From an uncultured Clostridia bacterium (GTDB taxonomy: Bacteria > Bacillota > Clostridia > Christensenellales > Borkfalkiaceae), in NCBI GenBank assembly GCA_947624445.1, contig CANQKF010000016.1:1-36415 (forward strand): a stretch of 36,415 nt of DNA, written 5' to 3'. This document shows positions 37 to 34,578 of the stretch, piece by piece. Both the position numbers and the translations under genes were made by a program. The notes below the pieces were generated by a model. The model was not told the origin of the DNA. It was given only the letters and a program-made list of their open reading frames with translations, and did not search any database. Within the stretch, counting starts at the first letter, position 1. Every line of letters starts with the position of its first letter.

Positions 37-2820
37 ATGAAACGTAACAACAAAACGCTTGCAAAGATCAAGCGCGGCTTCACACTCGTCGAGCTCGTGA
101 TCGTCATCGCGGTCATCGCGATTTTGGCCGCGGTGCTCATTCCGACGTTCATCACCGTCATCGACAGCGCGAACAACAGCGCGGATGTGCAGCTCGTGGC
201 GAACATGAACGCCGTCCTCGCGACCGATTTCGACGCCGATTCCACCGCCACGGCGGAGAACCTGCGCAAACTCATGAAGGACAACGGGATCGACAACTTC
301 GAGACCAAGAAGTCGGACAACGTGATACTTTATGATAAGTCCGCGAAGAAATTCGTGCTCATGAGCGACTTCGAGAAAAAGGTCAAAGCGGCGTCGCTTT
401 CTGCGGCGGGCAAGACGGGCGCGGCGAAGAATCTGGCGGCGAAACCGCTTGCCGAAGAGGGCGGCCTCACGCTCGACGAAAACGCCTATTCTCCCGAGGA
501 AATTTTCGACGGCTACATTATTACGAGCACCGGCGGCAACGATTTTGTCGAAGGGCTTTATAATTTACATAATCTATCTCAAGGGAATGAATTTTGGACG
601 TCGGCAGACGTGAAGAATGTACAAAAACTTTTTAATGGAATGAGCGGCGAGGCGAAAACGGCATTGATGAAAATCGTAAATTCATCATACTATATTGCCG
701 CAGATGGACAGATAGTAAACTTTTGGGTAGATACAACATTAGGGGTTCGTAAATGGTATTCCAATTCGGAGGACACACAAAACGATAAAGATAATCAGCC
801 TGTGAAAACCAGAGTTGTATTCAATGAAGGATTAAAGGATTTTTCCTTAAAAAATCTTATTGACGTTATAGGAGATCAATCCATTCTCGTAGTAATTCCT
901 CAAACCGTTGAACAAATCATTGATATCCCTGAAAATCAAGATCTCGGTATCATGTTATTGGGGAATACTTCTATCATTACCGACGAACAGAAGGCACCTT
1001 TATCAAAACTTGGTGTAGAAATTGCCCAAACTTCGCTTTCCGAGGTCAGAGAAGAACTTGTAAAAAGCGGTCCTGTGATTGCGAAGAGTGAATTCTATTT
1101 TGGAGAAGAGGACAATTTCGATCAAGGGAAATATAACGATCTTCAAGTTGCATTGGACGATGCCGGGATTTCTTCAAAATATTCGGGATTGGCGCGCTCG
1201 GTGATCATAACGCTCAAAAACTATACAATCAATCAAAATATAACCGTGCCGAAAGGCGTCACTTTGGAAATTCCATTCTGTGATCAAAATTCCTCTTCGG
1301 ATTTCTTGGATAACGATACGTTAAGCGATTTGAGCAAGAATTGCCGACAATATAGCGATGGTACGAAGAATTATTATTGCGGTGAGGGCGCAGGTTATCC
1401 AACGGCGGCGGTTGGCGGCATGGATATTTTTACTCCCAGCAAAACGATTGCACCAGAGAATAAAAAACAGTATGAAGTTACAATCGCTCAAGATGTGACC
1501 GTCACTGTGAATGGAACGATTCGAGTTGGTGGGGTGATCGGGTATACGGAAGGTAGTGCATCAAGTTTGAGTACAGCGGATTCTTATCAAGGGCACACCT
1601 CGGGCAATTACGGGCAGATCACCAACAATGGTACGATCGCAGTCGAAGGCGGCAAACTCGATGTTTGGGGATTTGTGAAAGGAGAGGGCTCCGTTGTTGC
1701 CGATAACGGCACCGTGTGCGAGCCATTCGTTGTCACCGACTTTATGGGCGGTACCAATACCGTTAATTTTTACTATAAATCACAATATACGCCGTTCAGA
1801 GAGTATGGAGTAGTGAATATTCAATGCCCGATGACGATCAATTACGGCGCAAACCTCATGGCACATTGTAATTTGTTTGCCATAATCTACAATCGAACGG
1901 ACGCATATCTTATTACATCTAATCCGACCGCGGAAGCAGTAATTAAATTAAAAGAAGGGGCATCAGCAACAACGACGTATGATCCTTCAAAGTCCGTCGA
2001 GGAAGGAATTGGCAAAGTATCGCTTAAAGTGATGGGACAGGCAGAAACGGGAGTTTTATCACTTGAAATAACGTTTGGGCAAATGAACGTGGCAACCGTA
2101 TCCACCGATACAGTTTTGTTCCCGATGCCGTATAACTTTGATTTGACGATCGAAGGACACTTTACCGTGAAAAATCAATATACGATCCTCCCCGGGGCTT
2201 CGGTCACGGTGAACGGCACATTGGAAGTTGCAAGTGGTGCAAAGCTCTACGTTCTCGATTGGATGCCTTCGAATGTAGAAATCGTAGGAGCACAGTATCC
2301 CGACGCGGCCATGTTAAAAAATGAGGGTTATAATAGTTACGGAGAGTTGAAAGTCAACGGGACTATGATCGTAGATGAAGGAGGCCATGCGGGCGGTTTG
2401 ATTTCTTCCGAAAAGCAAGGTGCAAAGCTCGAGGTCAAAGCGGGCGCCCAGGTTGCCGATAAGGATATCCGAATTGGCGGCGTTGCTTCGGACGCTACAA
2501 ATAACGTCAATATCTATACGGATTTGGCATTGCGGCTTGTTTCGGCAGAAGGAGCGATCACAAGTGCAGTGGCAGGGAAAACCTACACCATGGGGGAAGT
2601 AAAAACAGCGCAGAGAACGTTCTCGGACATCAAAACATTGGTTAAAGTTGATAGTGCAAATGAAGATACAATTGAGATAAAATATTATAAAGATGAGTGG
2701 GCAGCAATAAGCGGTGCCATGGCTGGCGGCACGGGAGGAGAGTCGGCGTATTTCAACAAACAAGACACGACGGCGCCCCAAGACGCCGCAATAATTTCAG
2801 GCGGCTGGACAACGACCTGA
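37..2820 (+). CDS. Large prepilin-like surface protein with beta-helix-like C-terminus
   Basis: The protein has 927 residues. Its start carries a class III (type IV pilin) signal: basic residues, then a prepilin peptidase site at Gly14|Phe15, a glutamate at the +5 position (Glu19) and a hydrophobic helix to about residue 38. A GGAG ribosome binding site lies just upstream. The first 170 residues resemble a pseudopilin stem. The rest is very long for a pilin, which usually has 130-200 residues, and contains repeated VTVNGT-like and GAKLxV-like strands (near residues 485-515, 715-740 and 770-800) that suggest a beta-helical or adhesin-like exposed region. From about base 540 the DNA becomes AT-richer than the first part of the gene. 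No pilus assembly ATPase or prepilin peptidase is in the window. The signal is clear; the function of the large domain is unknown. Confidence 0.8.
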   Translation: MKRNNKTLAKIKRGFTLVELVIVIAVIAILAAVLIPTFITVIDSANNSADVQLVANMNAVLATDFDADSTATAENLRKLMKDNGIDNFETKKSDNVILYDKSAKKFVLMSDFEKKVKAASLSAAGKTGAAKNLAAKPLAEEGGLTLDENAYSPEEIFDGYIITSTGGNDFVEGLYNLHNLSQGNEFWTSADVKNVQKLFNGMSGEAKTALMKIVNSSYYIAADGQIVNFWVDTTLGVRKWYSNSEDTQNDKDNQPVKTRVVFNEGLKDFSLKNLIDVIGDQSILVVIPQTVEQIIDIPENQDLGIMLLGNTSIITDEQKAPLSKLGVEIAQTSLSEVREELVKSGPVIAKSEFYFGEEDNFDQGKYNDLQVALDDAGISSKYSGLARSVIITLKNYTINQNITVPKGVTLEIPFCDQNSSSDFLDNDTLSDLSKNCRQYSDGTKNYYCGEGAGYPTAAVGGMDIFTPSKTIAPENKKQYEVTIAQDVTVTVNGTIRVGGVIGYTEGSASSLSTADSYQGHTSGNYGQITNNGTIAVEGGKLDVWGFVKGEGSVVADNGTVCEPFVVTDFMGGTNTVNFYYKSQYTPFREYGVVNIQCPMTINYGANLMAHCNLFAIIYNRTDAYLITSNPTAEAVIKLKEGASATTTYDPSKSVEEGIGKVSLKVMGQAETGVLSLEITFGQMNVATVSTDTVLFPMPYNFDLTIEGHFTVKNQYTILPGASVTVNGTLEVASGAKLYVLDWMPSNVEIVGAQYPDAAMLKNEGYNSYGELKVNGTMIVDEGGHAGGLISSEKQGAKLEVKAGAQVADKDIRIGGVASDATNNVNIYTDLALRLVSAEGAITSAVAGKTYTMGEVKTAQRTFSDIKTLVKVDSANEDTIEIKYYKDEWAAISGAMAGGTGGESAYFNKQDTTAPQDAAIISGGWTTT

Positions 2821-21781: not shown

Positions 21782-21814
21782 AAAAAAAGGATGGCGCCTG
21801 CCATCCTTTTTTTC
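21782..21814. terminator. Bidirectional intrinsic terminator
   Basis: AAAAAAAGGATGGC / GCCATCCTTTTTTT around a GCCT loop. T runs on both strands fit termination of GGGtGRT (plus) and of the six-gene membrane operon (minus). Confidence 0.9.
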
Positions 21815-21925: not shown

Positions 21926-24340
21926 TTATTGCGCTCCCCCGTAGGGCGCGAGCCAGCGTAGGGTGCCGCAATGCAGCACGATCTCGTAATTATTTGTTAC
22001 GTCCCTCGACTTTTCATAGATCGCAACCTCGCCGAAGGTGTTCTCGGCTTCCGCAGCGGCGGGGGAGAGCGATCCCGTGATCTCAACGGAGAGTTCCTGC
22101 CCCTCGACCAGCGAACCGAGGGAGACGCGATAGCTTTTTTCTGTGAGCGGGGTCTCGCCCCGGATTTTCGCCGCGGAAGCGCTGGTGAGTTCGATCCTGC
22201 GCGGAAGGACCTTGAGCGCCCCGCCCACAAAATCGACGCGGTGTCCCTCGGGGCACTGCGTCACCGCACAGCCGCGGAGGAGCTCTGTTCCCGTCACCTC
22301 GCCCGCGTCGACGATGTGCGCGCCCGCCACACGGATCCCAAGCTCCGCAGCCGTGACGTCGGGAGGCATTTGCGTGATCCTATACGCATTTTCGGGGTAG
22401 ACGAGCGGCATGCCGTCGTATTGCTTTTGATAGGAGAACAGGGTGACGACGATGGGGGATTTCACACGAAGCGTGCCCCAGCCGCCGAGGAATTCATAGT
22501 TCGCGGAGACGTCGCCCGTTGCGTTTTCGACGGCAAAGGAGAGGATATTCTCGCGCGTGCCGACCGCGTTCGCGCTGTCCGTGATCGCGGTGACGCCCGC
22601 GCCCCATGCCCGCACGATGTCGTCGCCCGCGAGCAATCCGTCGCCGCCCTCCGCAAGCGCGTAGTCATCCAGGCGCTTTGGAGTACCGTCGTAAACAAAC
22701 TCCGCCGAGCCCGTCGTCACATACACCGTCCGCTTTTTCACGGTGAGGGTGCCGAATTTCTCGATGATGTGATAATTTTTCGTAACGTCGGTCTCCGCCG
22801 CCGATATCGTGACGGCCGCACGGTTTGGCACGGTCCCCGCCGCGCGCACCTGTGTGCCCATATGCACCGAGACGCTGTGTCCCGCAAGCACGTCCTCGCC
22901 CGCGGCAGGCGTGAGCGTGTAGCCTTCCTGTTCGTGCGGCATGCCGTCGTAGAGGAATTCCGCCGAGGCGGTCGTGATCGTCAGGGTGCGCTGCAATATG
23001 GTGAGGGTGCCGAAGTGCGTCGTGACGGCATAATTTCCGGTGACGTTCTCCCCGTCCGCATAGACTGCGACAGAGACGGTATTGGGGTACGTGCCCGCTT
23101 CCGTCCCTTCAGGAGACGCGCCGAACACAACTTCCTCCCCCGCGGCGATGCCCTTCGCGGTCGGGACGTCCGGAACGCGGTGCGGGGTGCCGTCATAGAG
23201 GAATTGGGCAGATCCCGTCGTGACGGTGAGCGGACATTTTTCCACCGAGATCGTTCCGTATGCGACGGAGATCTCGTAATTATCTGTCACATCCTCCCCC
23301 GTTTGCAGGACGCGGGGGGTCAGAAAAGCGCGGTTTTCGGCCGTGCCCACGGTGGTGCGCTCCGTCCAATCGCTGCCGCCGTATTCCAGCGTGTGCCCAT
23401 CAAGAAGCCCCTCCGCCGTGCACCCGTGGGCGCCGTGGGGTGTGCCGTCGTAAGGGACGGACACGCTATTGGTCGTTATGGTGAGCGGACGCTTTTCTAT
23501 CGCGATCTCGCCCCAATTTCCCGTGATATCGTAGAACCGCGTGACGTCCTCTTCGCCATCGAAAACGGTGATACGCGGTGCGTTTTTTGCGCTTCCCGCC
23601 TCGGTGATCTCGGGAAATTCCGCGCGGATGACATGCCCCTCGAGCAGCCCGTCGCCGCCCGGGACCGAAAAGCGCTCCTCGCGGTGCGGCATGCCGTCGT
23701 AGACCCAAGTCTTTGAGGGAGTTGTGATCTCAAGGCTGCGGGGGATAGGCAGGAAGGTCCGTTGCGGGGCGCAGAGCGCATAGCAATCCGTGACGTCGTC
23801 GCCCCCGCTGCCGAGGATCCGCACGCGCCCGAGATCGGCGCAGACGGAAAAAAAGCCGTCGGTCTTTTCCTCAAAGAGGAAGCGATCCGCATGCAATTCG
23901 TCGTCGTAGACGAGCGAAGCGTATACCTCGGGCGTCTCCCCGTAGCGCAGATCGTCGTCCCCGATCCTGATTTCCGCCGTACGGGGGAGGATAGAAAAGG
24001 GGATCGCCCGCCCGTAGGAAGGCGTTCCGCCGAGACGGGAAGAGACGGCGCGCATCTCGAAATTTCCACAGCGTAGTGGCACTTCTTCCGACCAATCCCC
24101 GCCTTCGGTGCGGTATTCAAAGCGCGTTTTCCGGAAGAGGGCGTAGCCCGTGGGCGCAGGGGTTTCTCCATAGACGACGGAGGCGATCTCCGCATGGAAC
24201 ACGACGCCGCACAGCCCCAAGAGCAGGGCGGCAACGACAAGCAACAGCGCACCCGCAAGCAGGAGCGCGCGCCATTTCCAGAGCCCGAGCAGGAAGCGTT
24301 CCCTGCGGGCAAGTTTTTCACGGTATTTTGTGCAAAGCAT
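21926..24340 (-). CDS. Membrane-anchored surface protein with about eight MBG/YDG-like repeats (operon gene 6)
   Basis: The protein has 804 residues from ATG at 24340, which lies 7 bases after GGTGA; a TTG two codons earlier is an alternative. Residues 1-22 are basic and cytoplasmic, about 23-48 form one membrane helix, and the rest is outside. From about residue 105 the chain consists of about eight units of 80-90 residues following LTITTxSAxFxYDGTPH ... DVTxNYxI ... GTLTVxKR. These resemble MBG/YDG-type beta-domains of Bacillota surface proteins. No LPxTG sorting signal ends the protein, so it stays anchored by its N-terminus. Its gene overlaps the stop of gene 5, which carries two units of the same kind, so the two products may act together as an exposed filament or sensor. 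Confidence 0.8.
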   Translation of the reverse strand: MLCTKYREKLARRERFLLGLWKWRALLLAGALLLVVAALLLGLCGVVFHAEIASVVYGETPAPTGYALFRKTRFEYRTEGGDWSEEVPLRCGNFEMRAVSSRLGGTPSYGRAIPFSILPRTAEIRIGDDDLRYGETPEVYASLVYDDELHADRFLFEEKTDGFFSVCADLGRVRILGSGGDDVTDCYALCAPQRTFLPIPRSLEITTPSKTWVYDGMPHREERFSVPGGDGLLEGHVIRAEFPEITEAGSAKNAPRITVFDGEEDVTRFYDITGNWGEIAIEKRPLTITTNSVSVPYDGTPHGAHGCTAEGLLDGHTLEYGGSDWTERTTVGTAENRAFLTPRVLQTGEDVTDNYEISVAYGTISVEKCPLTVTTGSAQFLYDGTPHRVPDVPTAKGIAAGEEVVFGASPEGTEAGTYPNTVSVAVYADGENVTGNYAVTTHFGTLTILQRTLTITTASAEFLYDGMPHEQEGYTLTPAAGEDVLAGHSVSVHMGTQVRAAGTVPNRAAVTISAAETDVTKNYHIIEKFGTLTVKKRTVYVTTGSAEFVYDGTPKRLDDYALAEGGDGLLAGDDIVRAWGAGVTAITDSANAVGTRENILSFAVENATGDVSANYEFLGGWGTLRVKSPIVVTLFSYQKQYDGMPLVYPENAYRITQMPPDVTAAELGIRVAGAHIVDAGEVTGTELLRGCAVTQCPEGHRVDFVGGALKVLPRRIELTSASAAKIRGETPLTEKSYRVSLGSLVEGQELSVEITGSLSPAAAEAENTFGEVAIYEKSRDVTNNYEIVLHCGTLRWLAPYGGAQ

Positions 24341-24342
24341 GG

Positions 24343-25509
24343 TCAATTCACCGAGAGCGTGCCGAAGCGGAGGTCGATCTCGTAATTTTGGGTCACATCG
24401 ACGTTTTCGGCATTGAAGATACGGACGGTCGCGGTGTTGTCGCTCGTCCCGCGCGCCGTTTGGGCGCCCGTGTAGGAGATATCGATGCGGTCGCCCGCGG
24501 CGAGTCCGCTCTCTTCGAAGGAGTGCGCGGTGAGCGTTGCGCCGTCATACGTTTTTTCGGCGGAGCCCGTCGTGATCGTAAGTTTCCTGTGCGCGAGCGT
24601 GAGCATACCGAAGTGAAGCTCGACGACATAGCGGTCCCCGACATCCTCGCCCTCCGCATCGGTGATCGAGACGGTGAAAACGTTATCCGCCGAGCCCACG
24701 AGCGGCAGGGAGGCATAGTGCGCGGTAAGGGTGTGCCCGGGGAGCAGGAAGCCTGCCTCCACGGTGAAGTGTTCTGCCGAGAGCGGCGCGCCCGCATATT
24801 CGGCCTCCGCGCTGCCGCTGCGCAGGATGAGCCGCACCCGTTTGCAGATCGTGCAGTAGCCGTCGGCGGCGAACATGTGGATATGTTCGGGCGGTTCGAC
24901 CCACGCGTAGTGCTCGAGATCGTCCCAGGGGACCTCCGCCCACGGATAGTCCTCCGGCAGCTCTTTCCATGGGATCTGCCCCCAAGGGACTTCGCTCCAA
25001 GGCGTGTCGTCGGGAAGATCCTTCCAAGGCACATCTGCCCACGGAACCTCTTTCCACGGCGTGGTTTCGGGCAGTTCTTCCCAAGGGACATCCTCCCACG
25101 GAACGCCTTTCCACGGCGTGGTTTCGGGCAGTTCTTCCCAAGGGACATCCTCCCACGGCAGGCTGTCATACGGGAAGTCCTCGGGCAGTTCTTCCCACGG
25201 GACAGATTCCCAAGGGATCACGTCGACGGAGCTCTCGGGGATCTTCTCCCAAGGGATCTCTGTCCACGGGAGCGTTTCCCAATCGGTATCGCTCGGAAAG
25301 CGTTCCCAAGGCACGGCGTCCCAGGGGAAATCCTCGGGGAACTCCCGCCACGGGACCCTGTTCCACGGGATCCCGTCCGGAAGGTCGGGACGGGGCTTTT
25401 CGACGACGTTCGCATGCGTTACGATATCATATCCGAGCACCGTGACGACGGCGAATACGAGAAGGATGAGGATCCCGAAAAAATAGAGGAAGGAACTGCG
25501 TTTAGGCAT
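24343..25509 (-). CDS. Membrane-anchored protein with Pro-Trp pentapeptide stalk and two MBG-like domains (operon gene 5)
   Basis: The 388-residue protein has one N-terminal membrane helix (about 7-29). Residues 48-195 form a tandem array of PWxxV-type pentads, mostly grouped as PWxxVPWxxVPWxxLPxxT units of 19 residues; 22 tryptophans fall in this stretch. Then come HIHMFAADGYCTICKR, with a CxxC pair at Cys219/Cys222, and two MBG/YDG-like domains (about 225-305 and 306-388) like those of gene 6. In the DNA, 51 bases repeat exactly at 25051-25101 and 25108-25158. I know no family with this stalk. An outside location is inferred from the helix and the repeats. The start lies one base after the stop of gene 4. 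Confidence 0.8.
   Translation of the reverse strand: MPKRSSFLYFFGILILLVFAVVTVLGYDIVTHANVVEKPRPDLPDGIPWNRVPWREFPEDFPWDAVPWERFPSDTDWETLPWTEIPWEKIPESSVDVIPWESVPWEELPEDFPYDSLPWEDVPWEELPETTPWKGVPWEDVPWEELPETTPWKEVPWADVPWKDLPDDTPWSEVPWGQIPWKELPEDYPWAEVPWDDLEHYAWVEPPEHIHMFAADGYCTICKRVRLILRSGSAEAEYAGAPLSAEHFTVEAGFLLPGHTLTAHYASLPLVGSADNVFTVSITDAEGEDVGDRYVVELHFGMLTLAHRKLTITTGSAEKTYDGATLTAHSFEESGLAAGDRIDISYTGAQTARGTSDNTATVRIFNAENVDVTQNYEIDLRFGTLSVN
25000..25160 (-). repeat. 57-bp tandem repeats encoding the Pro-Trp stalk
   Basis: The unit of 57 bases encodes 19 residues. Two adjacent units share an identical 51-base stretch (25051-25101 and 25108-25158); flanking units are diverged copies. This suggests recent expansion and possible length variation between strains. 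Confidence 0.8.
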
Positions 25510-25510
25510 C

Positions 25511-26896
25511 CTATACCTCCCGTCCGCACAGCGCCGCGAGATATTTGCGGCTCTTTTCCATGCGTCCCGCGCCGAACAGCGCCGTGAGCTCTTCCATGAG
25601 CGCAGAGATCTCCCCGCGGATCCTGCCGGTATCCCCCGCTTCGAGCTTGCGCAGGATCTTTGCGGAGAGAATATCGTCGAGCGCGTCCGTGCGGTCGCCG
25701 CCGCAAGCGGCGTAGAAGGAGAGATAGGTGCCGATCTGTTTGCGGATGCGGTTGCCGAAGGTCAGGCGGAGGGTGCGGATGAGGGTCGCGTCGAGCGCGG
25801 CGAGTTTTTCTGCGAACTGCTGCGGGAGCGGGAAGTCCCGCTCCGCCGCGGCGACCATCTCCGCAAAGTGCGCATAGGAGAGGCACGCGCAGGCATCCGC
25901 GCCCGCAAAGGGAGGGCACGCCTCGCCGAGCGTGAGGACCATCGCGCGGTCAAAGACTTTATCCGAAATAGGGTTTTGTGCCTCGCCGTCGACCGTGCCC
26001 ACGAACCAGATGTTTTCGGGCAGACGCAGGGCGCCGTTTTCAAACTGTTGCGGATCGCTCGCGCGGGCGTCGGGGACGATGGGGAGCAAACGGAGCTCGG
26101 GATCGGGGATCTCCATCAGCGAGAGGAACTCGGCGAAGTAGTACTCCACGCGCGCAAGATTCATTTCATCGAGGACGACGAGATACATCTTGTCGCTCTT
26201 GCCCGCCTCGTAAATTTTCTTGAAGAGCGGGGTCTCGTTGTATTTTTTCGTGAATTCGTTGTAATACCCGATGAGGTCCGCCCGCTCTTTCCATGTCGGC
26301 TGGACGGGGATGACGGTGGCGGGAGTTTGGAGGAATTGCCCGAACGCGTAGGGGAGGGAAGTCTTTCCCGTGCCCGAAGCGCCCTGCAGGAGGAGTAGAT
26401 GGGAAGTCGCAAGCCCGGCGATGAATCCGCGGATCTCGCGCAGACCGAAGTAGAGCCTGCGTCCCGCCGCAAAGGCGCGGAAGCGCGTGCAGAGCTCCGC
26501 GGGCGAGACGATTTCATCGAAGGTTTCGTTGGGGCTGTCGTCCCGCACGGTGAAGCGCACGGTATCGCGGGCGGCGGCGAGTTTTTCGCGTTCGTTGCGC
26601 AGCGCTTCGTCCATTCCCGCCTCCCAAACTTCCGCGACCTTCTTCACCCGCTTTTTGCGCAGCAGCATGAAGATGAGGAAGGCGATCAACAGAAGAGGGA
26701 GAAGCAGCGCCCAAAAGAAGAAGATCGTGCTCCTTCCGCCCGTGTTGAAGTAGGCGAACAGCGCCGAGAAGGTGGCTTCGAGCAGGCCGTTGACAGAGAG
26801 ATAGATGATGACGACGATCGCCGTCACCGCGAGAAGGACAATGAGCGCCAGAAGTATGATGGGCAGGAGATGGAGTTTATTTCGTCTCGTTTTCAT
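25511..26896 (-). CDS. Membrane-anchored McrB-like AAA+ NTPase, second copy (operon gene 4)
   Basis: The 461-residue protein has two membrane helices (about 9-33 and 57-79), a basic stop-transfer KKRVKKV, then a cytoplasmic AAA_5/McrB-like domain. Walker A GASGTGKT is at 172-179, Walker B LVVLDEMNLARVEYYFAEFL at 239-258, and a sensor/arginine segment GTVDGEAQNPISDKVFDR at 300-317. The linker WKERADLIGYYNEFTKK is typical of McrB-like ATPases. The McrB GTPase signature MNxxDR is not kept, so nucleotide choice is open. It is closely similar to gene 2 throughout the AAA part and in the C-terminal FGNRIRKQIGTYLSFYAACGG segment. It overlaps the end of gene 3 by 20 bases. The two paralogues may form a mixed hexamer at the membrane. 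Confidence 0.85.
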   Translation of the reverse strand: MKTRRNKLHLLPIILLALIVLLAVTAIVVIIYLSVNGLLEATFSALFAYFNTGGRSTIFFFWALLLPLLLIAFLIFMLLRKKRVKKVAEVWEAGMDEALRNEREKLAAARDTVRFTVRDDSPNETFDEIVSPAELCTRFRAFAAGRRLYFGLREIRGFIAGLATSHLLLLQGASGTGKTSLPYAFGQFLQTPATVIPVQPTWKERADLIGYYNEFTKKYNETPLFKKIYEAGKSDKMYLVVLDEMNLARVEYYFAEFLSLMEIPDPELRLLPIVPDARASDPQQFENGALRLPENIWFVGTVDGEAQNPISDKVFDRAMVLTLGEACPPFAGADACACLSYAHFAEMVAAAERDFPLPQQFAEKLAALDATLIRTLRLTFGNRIRKQIGTYLSFYAACGGDRTDALDDILSAKILRKLEAGDTGRIRGEISALMEELTALFGAGRMEKSRKYLAALCGREV

Positions 26897-28196
26897 CCGT
26901 CCGCCTCCCCTTTGCGAATGTCTTTGCGCGCAGATCGCGATAGAACTGCCGCCGCATTTCGCGCCGTACGCCCTTCCAGTCGCGGTTGAGCGCGCGGGTG
27001 AGCGTCTCGCAGTCGGCTTCGAGGCGCGCGATTTTGTCCTCGTCGGCGGGATCGCCCTCCTGCAACCGCTCGCGGGCGGCAAGCAGTTGTGCGGAAAGAA
27101 TTGCCACGTCCTCCCGCGTTTTGGCGAGTTCGGCGCGCAGAAGCGCGGTCTCTTCGGTGAGCGCTTCGAACTCCAGGCGCTTATTCTTTTCCGCTGCGTC
27201 GAGCTTTTGTTCGGCCTCCGCCTTCGCCGCGTCCGAGGCCGCGAGCGCGTGTGTGAGGGCACGGATTTTTTCTTCGAGCTCTGCCGCCCTCCGCTTGGGA
27301 CCCGTGAGGCCGCGCGCGTATTCTTCCGAGAGTTCTTCTTCGAGCCCGCAGGCATAGGTTTCAAGCAGAGACCACTGCAGGGCGGCGGGCAGTGTGATGG
27401 AAAGGCTGCCCGCGCTTGCGAGCGGGATATCTTGCCGCTCCACCGTGACGCCCGTCCCGGAGAACTCCTGCAAAAATTCATAGAGGGAGACCGCTTCGCG
27501 GAAATTCTTGTCGTGACGGAGCACGTTGGTCTTGGTGAGATGCCGGATCCTGTCCCCCTGCGCGACAGACGCCATGAGCGGAGTTTTGAGCAGTAGCGAA
27601 GCGGAACGGATCACCGCTTCGATCCGCTCGAGGTCGGCGTTCGGGCGTGGGGTTTCGCTGCGCAGTTTGAGGTCGTAGGAAAGTTTCCGCCCGCCCGCCG
27701 TCATATCGGCGCGGAGGATCGCCTCGCCGCAAACGACGCCCGCGCCCTCCATCTCGATGCGCCTTTCCTCGGCAAATTCACGGATGAGGAGCAGGAGGGT
27801 ATAGAGGAATCTGTTTTCGTAGGTCGCGTAGTCGGTGAGGCGCTCCACCGTGTAGAGCTTTTCGGGCTTGATCGTCCCATCGGCCTCCTCGCCGAGGAGC
27901 TCGCTGTGCCCCGAGAGATGGCGGACGGATTCCTTGGAGACCCGCTTGACCTTCTCAATGGGGAGGACTTCCCCGTTCGAAAGGATAAATTGCCGTTCTT
28001 CGCCGATCGCGTCCGCAACGGCGGAGAGGCCCCGTTCGATCGCGGGAAGCCAGCCGCCCGAGGCGCGGCAGACCGTTGTCGTTACCGTGACGCGGCAGAC
28101 CTCCGAGAGGTCGCGCAGGAGCTGCTTCAAGGCGGGCAGCTCGGCGAGGGGAGCAAGTTCGGTGAATGCACCGAAGATCGCGCAGCGTTCATCCAT
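26877..28196 (-). CDS. Coiled-coil protein resembling the DUF2357/McrC N-terminal region (operon gene 3)
   Basis: The 439-residue protein starts at ATG 28196 after GGTGAG, overlapping nothing but lying 4 bases from the stop of gene 2. Residues 1-290 form a mixed domain with VRHLSGHSELL, YTVERLTDYATYENRFLYTLLLL and VLRHDKNFREAVSLYEFLQEF. The YENRF-type motif and the place between McrB-like genes recall DUF2357 proteins, which partner McrB-like ATPases and normally carry a PD-(D/E)XK nuclease. Here residues about 295-415 are instead a long charged coiled coil (AELEEKIRALTHAL, EALTEETALLRAELAKTRED), followed by a very basic tail. No nuclease motif is visible. It is predicted to be a cytoplasmic partner of the two AAA+ proteins. 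The family link is moderate in certainty. Confidence 0.65.
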   Translation of the reverse strand: MDERCAIFGAFTELAPLAELPALKQLLRDLSEVCRVTVTTTVCRASGGWLPAIERGLSAVADAIGEERQFILSNGEVLPIEKVKRVSKESVRHLSGHSELLGEEADGTIKPEKLYTVERLTDYATYENRFLYTLLLLIREFAEERRIEMEGAGVVCGEAILRADMTAGGRKLSYDLKLRSETPRPNADLERIEAVIRSASLLLKTPLMASVAQGDRIRHLTKTNVLRHDKNFREAVSLYEFLQEFSGTGVTVERQDIPLASAGSLSITLPAALQWSLLETYACGLEEELSEEYARGLTGPKRRAAELEEKIRALTHALAASDAAKAEAEQKLDAAEKNKRLEFEALTEETALLRAELAKTREDVAILSAQLLAARERLQEGDPADEDKIARLEADCETLTRALNRDWKGVRREMRRQFYRDLRAKTFAKGRRTDENETK

Positions 28197-28200
28197 ATGC

Positions 28201-29445
28201 TCACCCGTTCCGTGCGAGCTTCGCAGCGCACGCCTCACATTTTTTCATGGTCCCCGCACCGAAGAGCGCCTTGAGCTTTTCGGTGAGTTCCTCTGCGTCC
28301 TTGCCTTTGAACGAGACAGTCTCGAGTTTGCGGAACACCTTTTTGGAGAGGATGTCGTCGAGCGCGTCGAGTTCGGTGCCGCCGCAGGCGACGTAGACGG
28401 GGAGATATTTCCCGATCTGCTTCATGATGCGGTTGCCGAAGGAGATCTTATACCGCCGCGAGAGATATTCGTCGAGCGCGGAGAGACGCTTCATCGTCGC
28501 GTCTTCGACGCCCCGCCGCATCGCCTCCTCCGAAAGTTGCCGCAGCTGCGCATAAGAGAGGGGGACGGGGGTCGTTTTTTCGGCCTTGAAGGGCTCCGCT
28601 TTGCTGTCGAAGTCGAGGACCATCGCGCGGTCGTAGACCTTATCCGAGATGGCGAACGTCGAATCGTCGTTGTTCGCCGTGCCCAAAAACCATATGTTCT
28701 CGGGGAGACGGATACAGCCGTTTTTCAGGCGCACGGGGTCGTCGTCCCGTTGATCGGAGACGATCTCGAGATAGCGGGATTCGGGGTTGGGGATCTCCAT
28801 GAGCGATAAAAATTCCGCGAAGTAATATTCTACGCGGGCAATGTTCAGCTCATCGAGGACGGTCACAAAGATCCGCCCGTCGCCGTTCGCCTCATACATC
28901 TTTTGCAGGAGGCGGGTCTCATTAAATTTTTTAGTGAATTCGTTGTAATAACCGAGGAGATCGCTCCGCTCCTTCCACATCGGCTGGACGGGCACGATGA
29001 GAGAGGGATTCGAGAGGAACTCCCCGAGGGCGAAGGCGAGCGAGGTTTTTCCCGTGCCCGACATGCCCTGCAAAATGATGAAATTGGAGACCGCCATTCC
29101 TGCCACCAGCTCGCGCACGGAGGCGATCTCGTAATATAACCCGAGCTCATCCGCAGCGTAGCTTCTGAGCCCGTTACAAAAGCGCTCAAGCGTTATTTCC
29201 AGGGGGGGGGGTGCTAATTTGGGTTGTTCGTCGAGCGATTTGAGCATGCCAAAACGCGAACCGTCGTCGTCCGTGCTGTTCTGTTCGAGACGGGCGGTGA
29301 CGTTGTTGAACCGCCGCTCGTCGAGCATGGACATGATGACGATCAGCAGCATGAGCAAGACCATCACCGCGATGTAAACGATGGCAAAGACGGGCTGACG
29401 GATGAGGGACCAAATGTCGTTCCAAGAAGCAAGTAGTAGTATCAT
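28201..29445 (-). CDS. Membrane-anchored McrB-like AAA+ NTPase, first copy (operon gene 2)
   Basis: The 414-residue protein has one membrane helix (about 16-40), a linker with APPPLE at about 78-83, then a McrB-like AAA+ domain: Walker A GMSGTGKT at 127-134, WKERSDLLGYYNEFTKK at 158-173, Walker B VTVLDELNIARVEYYFAEFL at 194-213, and GTANNDDSTFAISDKVYDR at 255-273. The C-terminal part (FGNRIMKQIGKYLPVYVACGGTE) matches gene 4. A run of ten G on the plus strand (29202-29211) sits within codons 78-82; slippage there would switch the frame before the ATPase domain. It starts one base after the stop of gene 1. It is probably one half of a two-ATPase membrane machine. Confidence 0.85.
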   Translation of the reverse strand: MILLLASWNDIWSLIRQPVFAIVYIAVMVLLMLLIVIMSMLDERRFNNVTARLEQNSTDDDGSRFGMLKSLDEQPKLAPPPLEITLERFCNGLRSYAADELGLYYEIASVRELVAGMAVSNFIILQGMSGTGKTSLAFALGEFLSNPSLIVPVQPMWKERSDLLGYYNEFTKKFNETRLLQKMYEANGDGRIFVTVLDELNIARVEYYFAEFLSLMEIPNPESRYLEIVSDQRDDDPVRLKNGCIRLPENIWFLGTANNDDSTFAISDKVYDRAMVLDFDSKAEPFKAEKTTPVPLSYAQLRQLSEEAMRRGVEDATMKRLSALDEYLSRRYKISFGNRIMKQIGKYLPVYVACGGTELDALDDILSKKVFRKLETVSFKGKDAEELTEKLKALFGAGTMKKCEACAAKLARNG

Positions 29446-29446
29446 A

Positions 29447-30238
29447 TCAAAGTTCCTTTTCGATTACGGGGTCGAGGCGGCGGCGGGTACTGCGCCTGTG
29501 GAGGATGGCGGCGCCGGCGGCGCATGCCGTGAGCAGAATGGCGACCGATGCAGTCGAGCCGAAGATCACGCAGGTCGTTTCGAGCGCCAAAGCGTTCAGC
29601 CGCGCGATGAGCACGAAAAACGTGCAGAAGCAGATGAACAGCATGACCGTCGAAAATAAGAGGGGACCTGCATGCTTTTTTCGCCATAAAACGAGGGACG
29701 CGGCAATGACGCCCAGCCCTTCTGCGACGACGACCGCGAAGATGAGTTTTTTCGCGCGGACGATATTCAGGAGGCGGATGAGCAGGTGGTCGAATGCGGC
29801 GCCCACATAGAATGCGGTGCCGAGGATGGCAAGGAACAAAAGGATCAGCGTTGCGGCGCGGAGCAGCGTTTCCCGCTTGCAGGCAAGGGCGGGACGGGGG
29901 GCTGTCGCCGCAGGAGTTCGGCGGATCTGCCGGAGAAGCAGGGGGAAGAGGGCGGCGGAGAGGATGGGTCCCGCTGCCGTGAGCCAAAGGAGGGCGGGGC
30001 AGGGCAACGCTCCCAAGGGGAACTTCGTTGCCGCGGCGGCAAAAAAGAAGGCGCAGGCGAGAATGCCCACGTCGACTGTGACCGCCAAAGCGATACTAAA
30101 AGGAAACAAAACAAGAACGGTACGCGTTTGGGCGCCCGCCTGCTTGCGTGCGTTTGCATGAAGTTTGGGAAGCAGAAAACAAGATGCTGAAACCACGCAG
30201 AGTACGCCGGCGACCAGCAAAGTGATCCAATAAACCAT
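29447..30238 (-). CDS. Seven-helix membrane protein of unknown function (operon gene 1)
   Basis: The 263-residue protein starts at ATG 30238 after AAGGAA. It has about seven hydrophobic segments (near residues 3-25, 45-72, 80-103, 128-153, 166-187, 195-218 and 227-250), a basic loop after helix 3 and a charged C-terminal tail (HRRSTRRRLDPVIEKEL). I recognise no family or catalytic motif. It is the first gene after the operon promoter and is separated from the first AAA+ gene by one base, so it is very likely part of the same membrane assembly, perhaps as a base plate or channel; that role is only inferred. Confidence 0.7.
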   Translation of the reverse strand: MVYWITLLVAGVLCVVSASCFLLPKLHANARKQAGAQTRTVLVLFPFSIALAVTVDVGILACAFFFAAAATKFPLGALPCPALLWLTAAGPILSAALFPLLLRQIRRTPAATAPRPALACKRETLLRAATLILLFLAILGTAFYVGAAFDHLLIRLLNIVRAKKLIFAVVVAEGLGVIAASLVLWRKKHAGPLLFSTVMLFICFCTFFVLIARLNALALETTCVIFGSTASVAILLTACAAGAAILHRRSTRRRLDPVIEKEL

Positions 30239-30284
30239 AACATTCCTTTTTCGGGATCGGTGGATTTGCTTTGTTGCGAATTTT

Positions 30285-30313
30285 ATTCTATCATATCGCC
30301 CACGGAAAAGCAA
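30285..30313 (-). promoter_or_regulatory. Promoter of the six-gene membrane operon
   Basis: On the minus strand, TTGCTT (plus 30308-30313) and TAGAAT (plus 30285-30290) are 17 bp apart. The message would start near 30278, about 40 bases before gene 1. No further promoter was seen within the operon, whose genes are 1-4 bases apart or overlap. Confidence 0.65.
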
Positions 30314-30539: not shown

Positions 30540-31862
30540 TCAACACAATTTTAACTTGAACCGGTCATCATCAATGCGAAACTGTGCGGATCCGATACCT
30601 TTGCGCCGCACAATTTCATCAAGCCGTTGTTTATTTTCCGTGCTGATATTTGCGCCGTAATAAACTTTTACAGCGATGTCCTCATAATATTTTTGTTCCC
30701 GTAGCATAGATCGATATCCAATCATGCGCCATTCGTTTTCATAGCTCCAAATATTACTTTTTGTAAGCAACGATACGATCAGATCGGGAATCCCGCCACT
30801 ACCGTTGGAAAGCCGAATATTGCCCAGATCATTGAAATCAAACATGGAGAGCGGGACAGTCGGTTTTTCGGTGGAATAAATCGCCGGAAATAGCATCAAA
30901 AGCAGGTTTTGCGACGTCATTTTTGTGAAATCATATTCAACGCAAAACCCGGAATGTTTCCCTGCGTAATGCGACCACATCAAAATGTTATCGGGGGTCT
31001 CCGAAAAACAGGTGATCGCAAAGTGTTCGTTGATCGTTTCTTTGATGCGCGGCAAGATGGGCTCCAATGTTTTTCTGGCGTTTGCAACCTCTGTTTTGAT
31101 GTCTATGCCGTGGAGGTTCGATGCCTCGGCGATCCTTTCGATCCTGTCAACGATCGACTCCTCCGCGGAAATGGATCGAATCACGGAAATGATATTCCTC
31201 GATGTATCATCAAGTTGAATTCCGCTCGATGCCAAAATTCCGGGATCATGTTGTATCAGCGAGAGAACCGCTTTCATGATATCACGCTCCGTGATGGATG
31301 CGGTATCTATTTTGGAAGGATCGGTGATGAGGGAAAAGAATCGGCTTGCAAAATCTTTATCGGCGAGCGCTTCAAGGAAACTTGCCTGCAATTCATCCTC
31401 TTGAATCGATTCGCCGCGGGACATCCTTTGGATCATATCGTTTGTTTTCGGATGCGAATATAATAAACCGATCAGTTTGATCGTAGGATCATCATACTCC
31501 GTTTCCGGGGCGTTGCCGCACAATAATTTTTCAACAAAATCTTTTATGACCGCGTTTTCCCCTTTGATGTTTATCTTATCATTGAGCAATTGCGGCAGCA
31601 TTTCTTTGAGTGCTTTCTCGATCGAAAAACCCAATGCGCAATCAAACGGATCGTTAAAATGCTCCGGCTTGGAAAAATATAGAATGCCGTTTTCCAGATT
31701 GTCCAAAGCGTGATTTGCATCGTTTTCACTGAACGAGAAATATTTATAGAGTTTCCCGTTGAAACGGCGTATTTTTTCTCGGATGAAGTCCTCGATGCTT
31801 TGATTCGTCGGATTTATGCCGAACATTTGCATCAGTTGCGGTTTTACCCATGAAACATCCAT
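30540..31862 (-). CDS. DUF2971 domain protein
   Basis: The 440-residue protein carries DUF2971 features at both ends: LYKYFSFSENDANHALDNLENG then YFSKPEHFNDPFDC (about residues 37-76), and ITCFSETPDNILMWSHYAGKHSGFCVEYD (about 285-313) with NIWSYENEWRMIGYR near residue 375. Between them is a longer helical insert than usual. DUF2971 proteins are cytoplasmic, of unknown function, and often occur among defence and toxin genes. The DNA is visibly AT-richer than the housekeeping part, which suggests transfer. It lies 27 bases after the histidine kinase, with AGAGGT as ribosome binding site, so it may be co-transcribed with the two-component genes. Confidence 0.85.
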   Translation of the reverse strand: MDVSWVKPQLMQMFGINPTNQSIEDFIREKIRRFNGKLYKYFSFSENDANHALDNLENGILYFSKPEHFNDPFDCALGFSIEKALKEMLPQLLNDKINIKGENAVIKDFVEKLLCGNAPETEYDDPTIKLIGLLYSHPKTNDMIQRMSRGESIQEDELQASFLEALADKDFASRFFSLITDPSKIDTASITERDIMKAVLSLIQHDPGILASSGIQLDDTSRNIISVIRSISAEESIVDRIERIAEASNLHGIDIKTEVANARKTLEPILPRIKETINEHFAITCFSETPDNILMWSHYAGKHSGFCVEYDFTKMTSQNLLLMLFPAIYSTEKPTVPLSMFDFNDLGNIRLSNGSGGIPDLIVSLLTKSNIWSYENEWRMIGYRSMLREQKYYEDIAVKVYYGANISTENKQRLDEIVRRKGIGSAQFRIDDDRFKLKLC

Positions 31863-31889: not shown

Positions 31890-33902
31890 TTATGCGAGCG
31901 GGAGGGTGGCGGAAAAGACCGTATGATCCTCCTTGCGTTCATAGGTCAATTCGCCGTGCATCGCTTCGATCGCGTTCTTGGCGAGGAACAGGCCGAGGCC
32001 CGAATTATTTTCGGAGGGGCTGCCCGAAACGAAGGGCGCAAAGATGTTTTGCCCGGTCGCAATGCCCCGCCCGTCGTCGATGACGTCGAGGCGGCAGAAC
32101 CCCTTGCGCTTGGCGGCGGTCACGTTCAGATGGGAACAAGACGAGTGCTCGATCGCATTCAAAATCAAATTGAGGATCACGCTCTCAAGCGCCGCTCGTT
32201 TGGCGTACACATTCAGGATCTCGGGGACCGAAACCGTAAGAACGATCCCGTTTGCCTCGCAGTCGGGGCGCAATTCGTCGGCGACGCGTTTCACGATCTC
32301 GCTCAAATTCACCGCTTCGGACTGCTCTGCGACATAGTTTTGCCTGCCGTACGTTCCGATCTCGGCGAAGTCATTTTTCAGCTCCGAATTTTTCCGCAGC
32401 AGAAAATCCACTTTTGCAACCAGCTCGGGCGCCGTCAGCTTTTGGCGCAGGTCGGTCAGGGAATCGTTCATGCCGACGACGGTCCGCTTCATATCGTGGC
32501 CGACGTAGAGCAAAATTTTGTCCCGTTCGGCGAGGACGTTCTGCAAGCTCTGCGTCTGCTTCTTTACTTCCAGCTCCAGATTGGTGGTGAGATAGCGGTT
32601 GTGGATCTCCGTGGAGACAAATTCGCGAAGGCCGAGCACATGCGTGACGCCCAGCGCCCCGAGGCACAGCCAAAACGCGGGGGAGAACATGATGAAGGGG
32701 ATGGGCTGCGTCGCAAACAGGGCCATGACGGTCAAAACGCCCGCGATCATGGAATTGAGGCGCAGCCCCAGGGGCTTATTCCTGTAGACGTCGCGGACGG
32801 TGGCGCCGTAGATGACAAGGATGCAGGCAAACACCAGTACGATATAGGTGAGACAGACCGCCCGATAGGCGGCCGCGCCCGTGAAGAAGGGGGAGAGAAA
32901 CGCGAGCGCCGTTGCGATCGACGTGGCGGCGCCGATCGGATATAAAACGGGGACCTGTCCTATTTTTTTGGGGAGATAGAGCGCAGCGGCGAAGAGAATC
33001 AACCCGACCGAAAAGCGTCGGACCCCGAGCAGAAAATAGGGGACGGTCGTATACCCGAAGAGCGCGTAGGTGGGAAAAAGCACCGAGAAGATCCCGACGG
33101 CAAACAGGAGCTGCGGGATGAAGGAAAAGGACCGCTTCAGAATGCAGATCAGGAGGAAAAAGAGGAGGGTCGCCGCCCCGAGGATCGCGCCGATGAGAAG
33201 AATTGCGCGGTTCCCGTTGACGGCGCGATAGACCGCCGCCTCCTCGCCGATGAGGACGGGGCCCATGAATCCCACGAAGTTGTCGCTGTCCGCCTCGTAG
33301 TGGATGGTCACGGCGCACTCCCGCGAATATTTCCCGTCCGAAGAGATGGGGATATCGAGGAACATCGGCCGCGTTGCCGTTTGATGAAGGGCGGTTTCGT
33401 CGAATTCGGAGGGCGAAGAGTAATTGATGTAGTAGCCGATGTTGTATCTGTCGATCGTGCCGACGTAATCTTTGTTTTCGTACTGCACAAACACGCTGCA
33501 TGCGGCAAAGACGGGGGGAAGATACATCGTCAGATGCCAGTTCCCGTCGGGCTTTAAAAGGCCGCGCAAATTGCCGCTCGCCGCCCACTCTTCTTGGGTC
33601 AGCGTATCGATATAAAATCGGTACGTCCCCCGCCTTACGGGAGTTTCTCCCGCATTTTCGCAAGAGACGGCTTCGTTGAGTTCCGCAAATTCATTGGGGA
33701 GATAGTTGAAAGCCGTCATCTCCATCACGCCCTTCACGTCCGCAATGGAGACGGTGTTGACGGTGACGCCCGAGAGTTCTTTTTGGCGCACGGGCGCCCC
33801 GTCGACGGCGCCCCGCGCCGAGAGCAATAAGATCAGAGAAAACGTCATGCAGAGCAGGAACACGCCCGAAAGAACGAGCACGTTCCGCAGGTTCTTTCTC
33901 AT
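31890..33902 (-). CDS. Sensor histidine kinase with extracellular and seven-helix sensor region
   Basis: The 670-residue protein has a first helix or signal anchor (about 8-28), an outer domain (about 30-225), about seven membrane helices (232-425) in a 7TMR-DISM-like layout, a coiled region (430-460), a phospho-acceptor motif YVGHDMKRTVVG with His469, and a HATPase_c domain: N-box LNLILNAIEH (Asn582), G1 DDGRGI (609-614) and G2 GLGLF (635-639). The outer domain resembles DISM carbohydrate- or ligand-sensing folds; the ligand is unknown. The ATG overlaps the TGA of the response regulator when that gene's reading frame is restored, so the pair would be coupled. All catalytic motifs are intact. 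Confidence 0.9.
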   Translation of the reverse strand: MRKNLRNVLVLSGVFLLCMTFSLILLLSARGAVDGAPVRQKELSGVTVNTVSIADVKGVMEMTAFNYLPNEFAELNEAVSCENAGETPVRRGTYRFYIDTLTQEEWAASGNLRGLLKPDGNWHLTMYLPPVFAACSVFVQYENKDYVGTIDRYNIGYYINYSSPSEFDETALHQTATRPMFLDIPISSDGKYSRECAVTIHYEADSDNFVGFMGPVLIGEEAAVYRAVNGNRAILLIGAILGAATLLFFLLICILKRSFSFIPQLLFAVGIFSVLFPTYALFGYTTVPYFLLGVRRFSVGLILFAAALYLPKKIGQVPVLYPIGAATSIATALAFLSPFFTGAAAYRAVCLTYIVLVFACILVIYGATVRDVYRNKPLGLRLNSMIAGVLTVMALFATQPIPFIMFSPAFWLCLGALGVTHVLGLREFVSTEIHNRYLTTNLELEVKKQTQSLQNVLAERDKILLYVGHDMKRTVVGMNDSLTDLRQKLTAPELVAKVDFLLRKNSELKNDFAEIGTYGRQNYVAEQSEAVNLSEIVKRVADELRPDCEANGIVLTVSVPEILNVYAKRAALESVILNLILNAIEHSSCSHLNVTAAKRKGFCRLDVIDDGRGIATGQNIFAPFVSGSPSENNSGLGLFLAKNAIEAMHGELTYERKEDHTVFSATLPLA

Positions 33903-34578
33903 AAGGCCTCCCCCGTAAAACAGTATCCCTTGTTGAACTCGGTGCGGATGATACGTCCGCGGTGGCCTCCTTCAGCTTTCTGCGCAGGGAGGAAAGATGC
34001 GTGCGGATCGTCGTCGTGCCCAAACTCGGCGCGCACCAGATCTTCTCGTAGATCTCATCCGCGGTGAAATACGCGCCGCGGTGTTTGATCAGGAAGAACA
34101 GAATATTGAATTCGGAAGGCGTGAGGGGGATGGGCGTTCCCTTATATTTCACGGTGCGCTTGTTGGCGTCCACGGAAAAGGCCCCGAAGGTCTCCACCGC
34201 GTCCGCTTTGGGCAGGAGGCGTATGGCGATGTGCGTCTCCAGGAGGCGCATGGAACAGGGCTTCACCACATAATCCGCCGCGCCCGAGGTGAGCCCCGAG
34301 AGAATGGTGTCCTCGCCGTCGAGCGTGGAGAGAATAATGACGGGAGGGGATACCTCGGGGAGCCGTTGGAAGAGCTCCAGCCCCATGCTGTTTTTGAGGA
34401 TGAGATCCAAAACGATCGCGTCGAATCCGCCCTTTTCCGCCAAAATCTCGGCGGCTTCATCCACGTCCGACGCCGTAAAAACAGTGTTTTCCCGGGAGAA
34501 ATAGGCGACCATCTCCCGCTTGAATCCCTCGTCGTCCTCAACGAACAGCAGATTTCTTGCGCTAACCGTGTAATTCAT
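33899..34578 (-). pseudogene. OmpR-family response regulator, apparently frameshifted near its 3' end
   Basis: The receiver domain is intact: acidic pocket Asp15/Asp16, phospho-acceptor Asp58 in AIVLDLILKNSMG, and Lys106 in YVVKPC. A winged-helix domain starts near residue 130 (LTPSEFNILFFLIKHRGAYF, then TTTIRTHLSSLRRKLKEAT). After about residue 207 the frame is lost. In the neighbouring frame the expected ending (GRIIRTEFNKGYCF, TGEAL) runs to a TGA at 33899-33901 that overlaps the kinase ATG. As it stands, the open frame continues as unrelated sequence to 33691, deep inside the kinase gene. One missing base near 33957-33963 explains this; it may be a true mutation or an assembly error. Confidence 0.85.

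Follow-up and report, generated by a model that had tools for sequence, protein, structure and literature searches.

CoCoPALM systems were named by Bell et al. (eLife 2024, PMC11090510), and the sections of that paper dealing with them tie them to pilus assembly through their signal peptidases and announce a later paper. The same sections state that wherever the McrC nuclease of a CoCoNuT system is inactive or missing, a different nuclease is always encoded nearby. In MoxR-DUF58-transglutaminase (TgpA/PFNA) clusters, as far as the relevant part of PMC6803598 describes them, a cytoplasmic AAA+ protein stands by an outer transglutaminase, with an adhesin in bifidobacteria. Here, we analysed a six-gene operon (g1 to g6) on a 36,415-nucleotide stretch of DNA from an uncultured Clostridia bacterium of the Borkfalkiaceae (GCA_947624445.1, contig CANQKF010000016.1; the whole stretch is called the window below). 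It encodes two membrane-anchored McrB-like AAA+ proteins, whose motor domains are predicted to be cytoplasmic, and single-anchor repeat proteins directly after them.

We hold it about evenly balanced that the operon is a restriction-derived membrane motor which assembles or cross-links surface proteins, and not a restriction system, its function being read from gene content. Relatives of g3 were sought by scanning one genome per species, and the best 80 of 164 were fetched (743 proteins); g3 was recognised in 77 of these 80 loci and full flanks were present in 47. Several points argue for this reading: a surface-protein gene lies downstream of the motors in all 47 full-flank loci, 22 of 57 loci have a transglutaminase domain in their first surface gene, g3 resembles McrC and is free of a nuclease, the motor cores are constrained, CoCoPALM-like relatives stand by signal peptidases, exported proteins and cyclic di-GMP enzymes, and positive-inside counts place the motors inside and the repeats outside. 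In some gut Clostridia a defence-type motor was thus probably turned to building or remodelling the cell surface. A fuller version, a trans-envelope machine with a duplicated restriction-type motor kept as one sequence on two different anchors, a scaffold of two apparently dead enzymes and transglutaminase-dependent fibre building on the outside of gut Clostridia, is offered tentatively.

McrB-like motors and their partner

The six genes lie on the minus strand within 21926-30238 in the order g1-g2-g3-g4-g5-g6, as listed below (A and C are proteins of related loci that are described in the next section; AAA1 and AAA2 denote g2, g4 and their counterparts).

30285..30313, minus strand: possible sigma-A promoter, TTGCTT-N17-TAGAAT, found by eye and missed by the promoter scan
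29447..30238, minus strand: g1, seven-helix membrane protein of 263 residues; by a g1-family hidden Markov model (HMM), three helices resemble those of A and four those of C
28201..29445, minus strand: g2 (AAA1), McrB-like AAA+ protein with one N-terminal helix (AAA_5, McrB in PDB, PADLOC candidate PDC-M26A, motif check)
26877..28196, minus strand: g3, DUF2357/McrC-type N-terminal bundle (about residues 1-285) and C-terminal coiled coil (286-438), without nuclease
25511..26896, minus strand: g4 (AAA2), McrB-like AAA+ protein behind a two-helix hairpin (Pfam, PADLOC, motif check, helix prediction)
24343..25509, minus strand: g5, N-terminal anchor, proline-tryptophan-acid repeats and one clear MBG/YDG-like unit (repeat pattern)
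21926..24340, minus strand: g6, protein with an N-terminal anchor and six or more MBG-like repeats (repeat alignment)
21782..21813, minus strand: strong intrinsic terminator 3' of g6 (14-pair stem and T-run)

With the starts chosen, neighbouring genes are 1-4 bases apart or overlap, g3 and g4 by 20 bases, and all six reading frames are open. The start of g1 is more likely at 30238, behind AAAAAGGAATGTT, than at 30313. Helices were predicted by the Kyte-Doolittle method, which gave 7, 1, 0, 2, 1 and 1 for g1 to g6 with the pair of g4 forming a hairpin, and sidedness was taken from positive-inside counts, which placed the motors and the GH3-like domain of related proteins inside and the repeats outside. 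Because the same gene order recurs across dozens of loci, it goes beyond chance. The initial annotation had described six closely spaced or overlapping minus-strand genes, two paralogous AAA+ proteins with N-terminal membrane helices, a coiled-coil g3, a seven-helix g1 and two single-helix proteins with MBG-like repeats; gene calls, helix counts and repeat patterns agreed with all of these. It had also proposed one promoter and one terminator, of which the terminator (21813-21782) was found, and the promoter scan upstream of g1 returned none, leaving a single box seen by eye.

The Pfam search matched g2 to AAA_5 (E 1.5e-5), and McrB was its match in PDB (E 4e-4). When a profile of 11 g2/g4 proteins was run against 177,635 distinct PDB sequences, only McrB chains came within E 0.01 (8.1e-5 to 1.7e-4). 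g2 and g4 are paralogues, with 52% identity across g2 residues 85-409. At their N termini, membrane helices were found with no other Pfam match above cut-off, and no modified-base reader. Walker A and the NNDD signature were intact in 65/65 AAA1 proteins, and NNDD was present by a strict pattern in 57 of 67 AAA2 proteins; of the other ten, one is a cut protein and nine, among them that of the window, come from short-type loci or their clade. The window g4 retained Walker A and Walker B and lost the NxD signature, VDGEAQ replacing NNDD.

Comparison of the AAA1 and AAA2 cores (about 331 codons) revealed at most six residue differences in 18 of 57 loci, with zero in 13 of these, and the N-terminal parts in those 18 loci were only 38-68% identical; one motor sequence thus sits on two different anchors in 18/57 loci. 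Summed over the 18 loci, 189 codon differences between the cores were silent and 11 changed the amino acid (for example, silent/residue differences of 56/1 in L124, 62/6 in L121, 37/0 in L120 and 13/1 in L095). Assembly errors in metagenome-assembled genomes could mimic identical AAA copies, yet they could not produce the silent differences seen between the copies. Gene conversion together with purifying selection would be the simplest reading of the near-identical cores, and it suggests that AAA1 and AAA2 work within one ring. In the short-type loci, core identity has drifted to 50-59%.

g3 matched DUF2357 in Pfam. The structure search with the whole of g3 gave coiled-coil noise, with McrC absent among the matches listed, so the N-terminal part was folded alone. 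This predicted model matched McrC in structure; when it was searched with Foldseek, nothing was returned at E 0.001 and McrC was absent among the matches listed. The loops at residues 69-120, though highly conserved, had low confidence in the model of g3 alone. Residues 286-438 were modelled as three long helices, and the g3 profile gave only weak coiled-coil matches among PDB sequences, all from profile position 302 onward. No nuclease family, including PD-(D/E)xK, was found in g3 by family search or in the model. A nuclease hidden in g3, which the initial annotation had named as a finding that would refute its proposal, was rejected, as the C-terminal part consists of long helices and matched no nuclease family. 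As judged from family and predicted fold, g3 is a McrC-type activator bundle with a coiled coil in place of the nuclease.

Related loci and the reduced form in the window

The fetched relatives of g3 came nearly all from metagenome-assembled genomes of Clostridia, many of them from animal guts, and included Gallimonas, Borkfalkia, Anaerocaecibacter muris and one Anaeroplasma. Genes were called by a custom script, which missed or split some; the three loci without recognised g3 (L067, L090, L103) were excluded from the counts. The standing gene order was A-B-C-AAA1-g3-AAA2-surface1-surface2. Among the 47 full-flank loci, 42 had both AAA genes, 40 had C or a short C, 33 had B and 32 had A; two MBG proteins were present in 41 and the seven-helix g1 in 4; L113 and L125 seem truly to be without AAA1. 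The median gap between neighbouring genes was 9 bases, and 208 of 282 gaps were 30 bases or less. The downstream gene present in 47/47 loci encodes MBG repeats, except that two loci have a transglutaminase gene there instead; 41 were recognised by the automatic rule and six by inspection. Among the latter, L081, L085 and L124 have MBG genes slightly further downstream (the AAA2 of L081 was missed by the script), L056 is apparently the same contig as L033, where MBG genes are visible, and L089 and L097 carry, after AAA2 and in place of the MBG gene, a protein of about 2,550 residues with three transglutaminase domains. When the 193 genes left unassigned in these 47 loci were clustered, no family occurred in more than six loci; the two largest resemble leucine-rich repeat (LRR) proteins and ABC ATPases, judged by their first residues only.

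Seven further loci had the short form with g1 and, within the reach of their contigs, the same gene order. Since g1 stands in 4 of 47 loci and A-B-C in most others, the six-gene set is, on this comparison, a larger operon in reduced form, which only a minority of loci show. The initial annotation would have been refuted by AAA+ homologues mostly without the two surface proteins and the seven-helix protein; this did not apply to the surface genes and did apply to the seven-helix protein, in whose place most loci have A-B-C. Other parts of its proposal were supported: the McrB-like motors, the nuclease-free DUF2357 partner and the membrane setting with its linkage to surface repeat proteins.

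The C protein appears to be a composite. Its residues 1-640 are GH3-like (3.7e-65 to the beta-glucosidase 7ms2; PF01915 at 3.6e-32), and its last 440 positions match g4, including the membrane helices (1.9e-35). By positive-inside counts both parts are cytoplasmic in proteins with two (n=18) or four (n=20) helices, and the counts are ambiguous in the nine with three. The Lys-His pair and the nucleophile matter in GH3 enzymes. In a single MAFFT alignment, with columns anchored to 7ms2 through a separate alignment, the Lys-His pair (KHF of 7ms2) was kept in 0/49 C proteins, an Asp stood at the 7ms2 nucleophile (SDW motif) in 9/49, and all three residues were found together in 0/49; a pairwise alignment of another C placed an Asp at the nucleophile with low confidence. 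Walker A (GK[ST]) was likewise seen in the last 400 residues of 0/49. C is probably, not certainly, a scaffold of two dead enzymes.

Enzyme domains without key residues often act as sensors or scaffolds, so the same absence of the GH3 Lys-His pair and of Walker A from all 49 C proteins would also suit a signalling device, in which surface repeats or LRR ectodomains of B bind a ligand, the AAA+ ring and the GH3-like domain relay the signal inward and the surface gates the motors. One homologue of B (L040, 1543-4686, plus strand, apparently on the same contig as L113) has a large BspA-type LRR ectodomain (PF13306, E 1.4e-104), and because of this B may also be a surface protein. The window has at 31890-34578 (minus strand) a histidine kinase gene, the second gene upstream of the operon, and a response-regulator reading frame whose C-terminal part continues, through an overlap or a frameshift, in a frame that overlaps the kinase start. 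However, no kinase or regulator recurs in the operons of the relatives, and a search of the 743 proteins from the 80 loci gave no relative of the window kinase at E 1e-3; moreover, two active-looking motors would be costly for a sensor, and transglutaminase is an output domain. We consider signalling quite unlikely.

The origin of g1 was traced with an HMM built from eight g1 proteins (that of the window and those of seven loci) and searched at E < 1e-4 against the 743 proteins. Its matches were confined to the seven g1 proteins, 17 of 42 A proteins and 15 of 57 C proteins, with none among 42 other polytopic proteins; single-sequence g1 gave no significant match to A and C, the likeness being visible only with the family HMM. 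Residues 1-33 of A map to positions 1-33 of g1, about 155-228 of A to 41-113, and the four C helices to about 117-268. As far as this mapping goes, g1 matches a fused membrane skeleton of A (three helices) and C (four), and B, the soluble domain of A and the GH3-like and AAA-like domains of C are cut out in the g1 form. In the midpoint-rooted AAA tree, g1-bearing loci formed one clade in the AAA1 and AAA2 parts alike (Shimodaira-Hasegawa-like approximate likelihood ratio test 99), with nine rows per part, one of them from a locus with its upstream flank cut. Since they form one clade in both parts, the tree supports a single reduction event in the lineage of the window, whose own branches are long. 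The clade is sister to 21 rows whose C has four or more helices.

Such losses raise the question of decay. If the operon were a decayed CoCoPALM-like one, without present function and retained by chance, this could account for the lost NxD signature of g4 and for the absence from the window's clade of B, of the transglutaminase and of the soluble domains of A and C. We consider decay highly improbable, however: all six frames are open, AAA1 motifs are intact in 65/65 proteins, and the short form recurs in seven other loci with its order kept as far as contigs reach.

Surface proteins and possible function

g5 has 21 PW dipeptides in residues 31-205 and 57 bp tandem repeats. By pattern, MBG/YDG-like units number one in g5 and six in g6, where Pfam scores stayed below cut-off (YDG E 0.0036 in g5, MBG_2 E 0.044 in g6). 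Proline-tryptophan repeats (five or more PW) also enrich the first surface protein in 23 of 52 loci, with the window likewise of this kind. Six first surface proteins, picked for their unusual look, were given to Pfam, and every one of them contained transglutaminase cores, at most five per protein (PF01841, E 1e-21 to 8e-106); that of L097 also had TgpA_N (1.3e-10) and 13 DUF1542 repeats. The 22/57 loci mentioned above were recognised with an HMM made from the six, and among 49 such domains Cys was kept in 44, His in 47 and Glu/Asp in 48. The domain followed the type of C: it occurred in 15 of 22 loci whose C has two or three helices, in 2 of 20 with four or more, in 6 of 8 without recognised C, and in 0/4 short loci (0/5 in the first HMM count). 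The named strain Anaerocaecibacter muris CLA-AA-M11 (L095) carries the motors, C and a surface transglutaminase. Because many related first surface proteins carry transglutaminase domains, the ancestral operon probably served to cross-link surface proteins covalently or to mature them. In the clade of the window, so far as domains can be recognised, the transglutaminase and the GH3-like domain are gone and the first surface protein has a proline-tryptophan-acid rod.

On the reading of a surface-building motor, AAA1 and AAA2 would form a mixed ring, and the g3 bundle would sit in or on it and stimulate the AAA+ proteins as McrC does McrB. Nucleotide-driven movement would reach the g5 and g6 anchors by way of the membrane helices of g1, or of A and C, and the outer fibres might thereby be exported, ordered, cross-linked or reshaped. 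The trans-envelope machine of the initial annotation is thus partly supported: motors, partner, membrane setting and surface linkage stood, and the direction of action between the ATPases and the surface proteins is one that we infer.

Several results weigh against a surface-building motor. The transglutaminase HMM matched none of the surface proteins of the window. Both g2 (6.9e-44) and g4 (4.8e-43) matched the PADLOC phage-defence candidate PDC-M26A, and plasmid relatives resemble CoCoNuT defence operons. The operon was present in 7 of 19 listed genomes of the genus, a patchy occurrence that is expected of defence or variable surface genes. Furthermore, exported proteins of CoCoPALM-like loci (see next section) matched no family models, so that a role in fibres can be given to them only tentatively.

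The PADLOC match, the plasmid relatives and the patchiness would fit a membrane-bound anti-phage system, whose McrB/McrC-like core would sense infection in the cytoplasm and kill or arrest the cell by disturbing the membrane, while the surface proteins would act as sensors or bind phage. Next to the operon, at 30540-31862 (minus strand), is another candidate defence gene; it encodes a DUF2971 protein (Pfam 1.9e-9; PADLOC candidate PDC-S31, 1.3e-49). GC content around it falls to about 0.46. However, none of the 743 proteins from the 80 loci was related to it at E 1e-3. In addition, the six proteins are without a nuclease and no other family recurs in more than six of the 47 loci, unlike the rule given for CoCoNuTs in the sections cited above (PMC11090510), and the surface proteins are long, repeat-rich and often transglutaminase-bearing. 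When phage records were searched with g2, the only finds were two distant AAA genes in unannotated human-gut records (MT835511.1 and MT837127.1, with 36% and 30% identity to g2). An anti-phage role therefore seems rather doubtful to us.

At wider range, the g3 profile matched 78 of 297 genomes of the order, at 300 bits or more in 13, and many of the others were of a second, CoCoPALM-like kind; in 397 other genomes of the phylum, 31/31 matches were to the coiled coil only. Another count for the phylum gave 31 of 32 such matches. The gene left of the operon was found in 26/26 genomes of the genus, and what comes after it differs. A mobile insertion was considered and not borne out: no empty site was seen, and the right-hand neighbours tested were present in none of 14 stretches (a fifteenth had only 267 bases). 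At the left end of the window (37-2820, plus strand) lies a gene for a 927-residue protein with a prepilin-like N terminus, GFTLVELVIVIAVIAILAAVLIP.

If a surface-building motor is the right reading, a McrBC core works at the envelope without a nuclease, and the operon would supply a defined set of genes with which to study the role of CoCoPALM-type systems. It also holds a natural experiment, with near-identical motors in many lineages and an apparently dead scaffold that was lost in one clade, leaving a fused helix remnant. The named strain CLA-AA-M11 makes it testable.

Comparison with known systems

Type IV restriction systems of the McrBC kind share with the operon the McrB-like AAA+ domain and the DUF2357/McrC N-terminal bundle. 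They differ from it in that the operon has no nuclease, showed no modified-base reader, is membrane-bound and includes surface proteins. A CoCoNuT needs an active nuclease (PD-(D/E)xK, HEPN or other), and none was found among the six window proteins, nor any recurrent unassigned family in more than 6/47 loci. The plasmid operons, called CoCoNuT-like by gene order alone, share an AAA+ protein of about 36% identity, adjoined by a DUF2357 protein in two of three examined; they differ in having another gene upstream as well as a large AAA-domain protein, and their annotation holds no membrane or surface parts.

Twenty-two fetched CoCoPALM-like loci from the same taxonomic order (L044-L051 and L187-L200) had a SipW-type signal peptidase in 22/22, as judged by an HMM seeded with seven proteins from five of these very loci. 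A putative TasA-like exported protein, labelled so from SipW-dependent signal sequences, was found in 15/22 with a custom two-sequence HMM; signals with TYAWF-type ends occur on exported proteins of these loci. EAL/GGDEF proteins occurred in 10/22, and for this reason control by cyclic di-GMP is suggested. NCBIfam placed TIGR02228 above cut-off in L195, placed the peptidase of L044 just below it and confirmed the cyclic di-GMP enzyme; in L197 the script called neither AAA nor DUF2357. By their content, the loci with SipW-type peptidases fit CoCoPALMs. In the six window proteins no signal peptidase was found, and among the 743 proteins of the 80 loci there was one match at E 6e-4, in contrast to 22/22 above. 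When three plasmid CoCoNuT-like proteins were added to the AAA tree as an outgroup, whose branch was very long, rows of the window's kind formed a clade (99/100) apart from the CoCoPALM-like ones.

CoCoPALMs are, as judged from shared domains, the nearest published relatives of the operon. As described in the sections of Bell et al. (2024) on these systems, the two share a McrB-type NxD-branch domain behind a membrane anchor, a McrC homologue with a coiled coil and a link to exported proteins; both are set apart from the CoCoNuT-like outgroup in the AAA tree. The NxD branch is present in AAA1 (65/65) and lost in the window g4. According to the same sections, CoCoPALMs have an FtsB-like membrane and coiled-coil part on the AAA+ protein, where the AAA+ proteins of the window have a predicted membrane anchor. 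Unlike CoCoPALMs, this operon and its relatives have two AAA+ genes, the GH3-like/AAA-like C protein, and surface proteins with MBG repeats and transglutaminase. In literature searches of main texts on DUF2357, CoCoPALM, McrB-like proteins with surface proteins, and MBG, neither the GH3-AAA protein nor this operon was found described among the papers listed.

The MoxR-DUF58-transglutaminase clusters are a likely functional analogue. They share, in the part of PMC6803598 that describes them, a cytoplasmic AAA+ protein whose neighbours are a membrane transglutaminase and a surface protein resembling an adhesin. Among the six window proteins neither a MoxR nor a DUF58 family member was found; the AAA+ proteins here are McrB-like instead of MoxR, DUF2357 replaces DUF58, and the transglutaminase, which is present in 22/57 related loci and missing from the window, is fused to MBG repeats.

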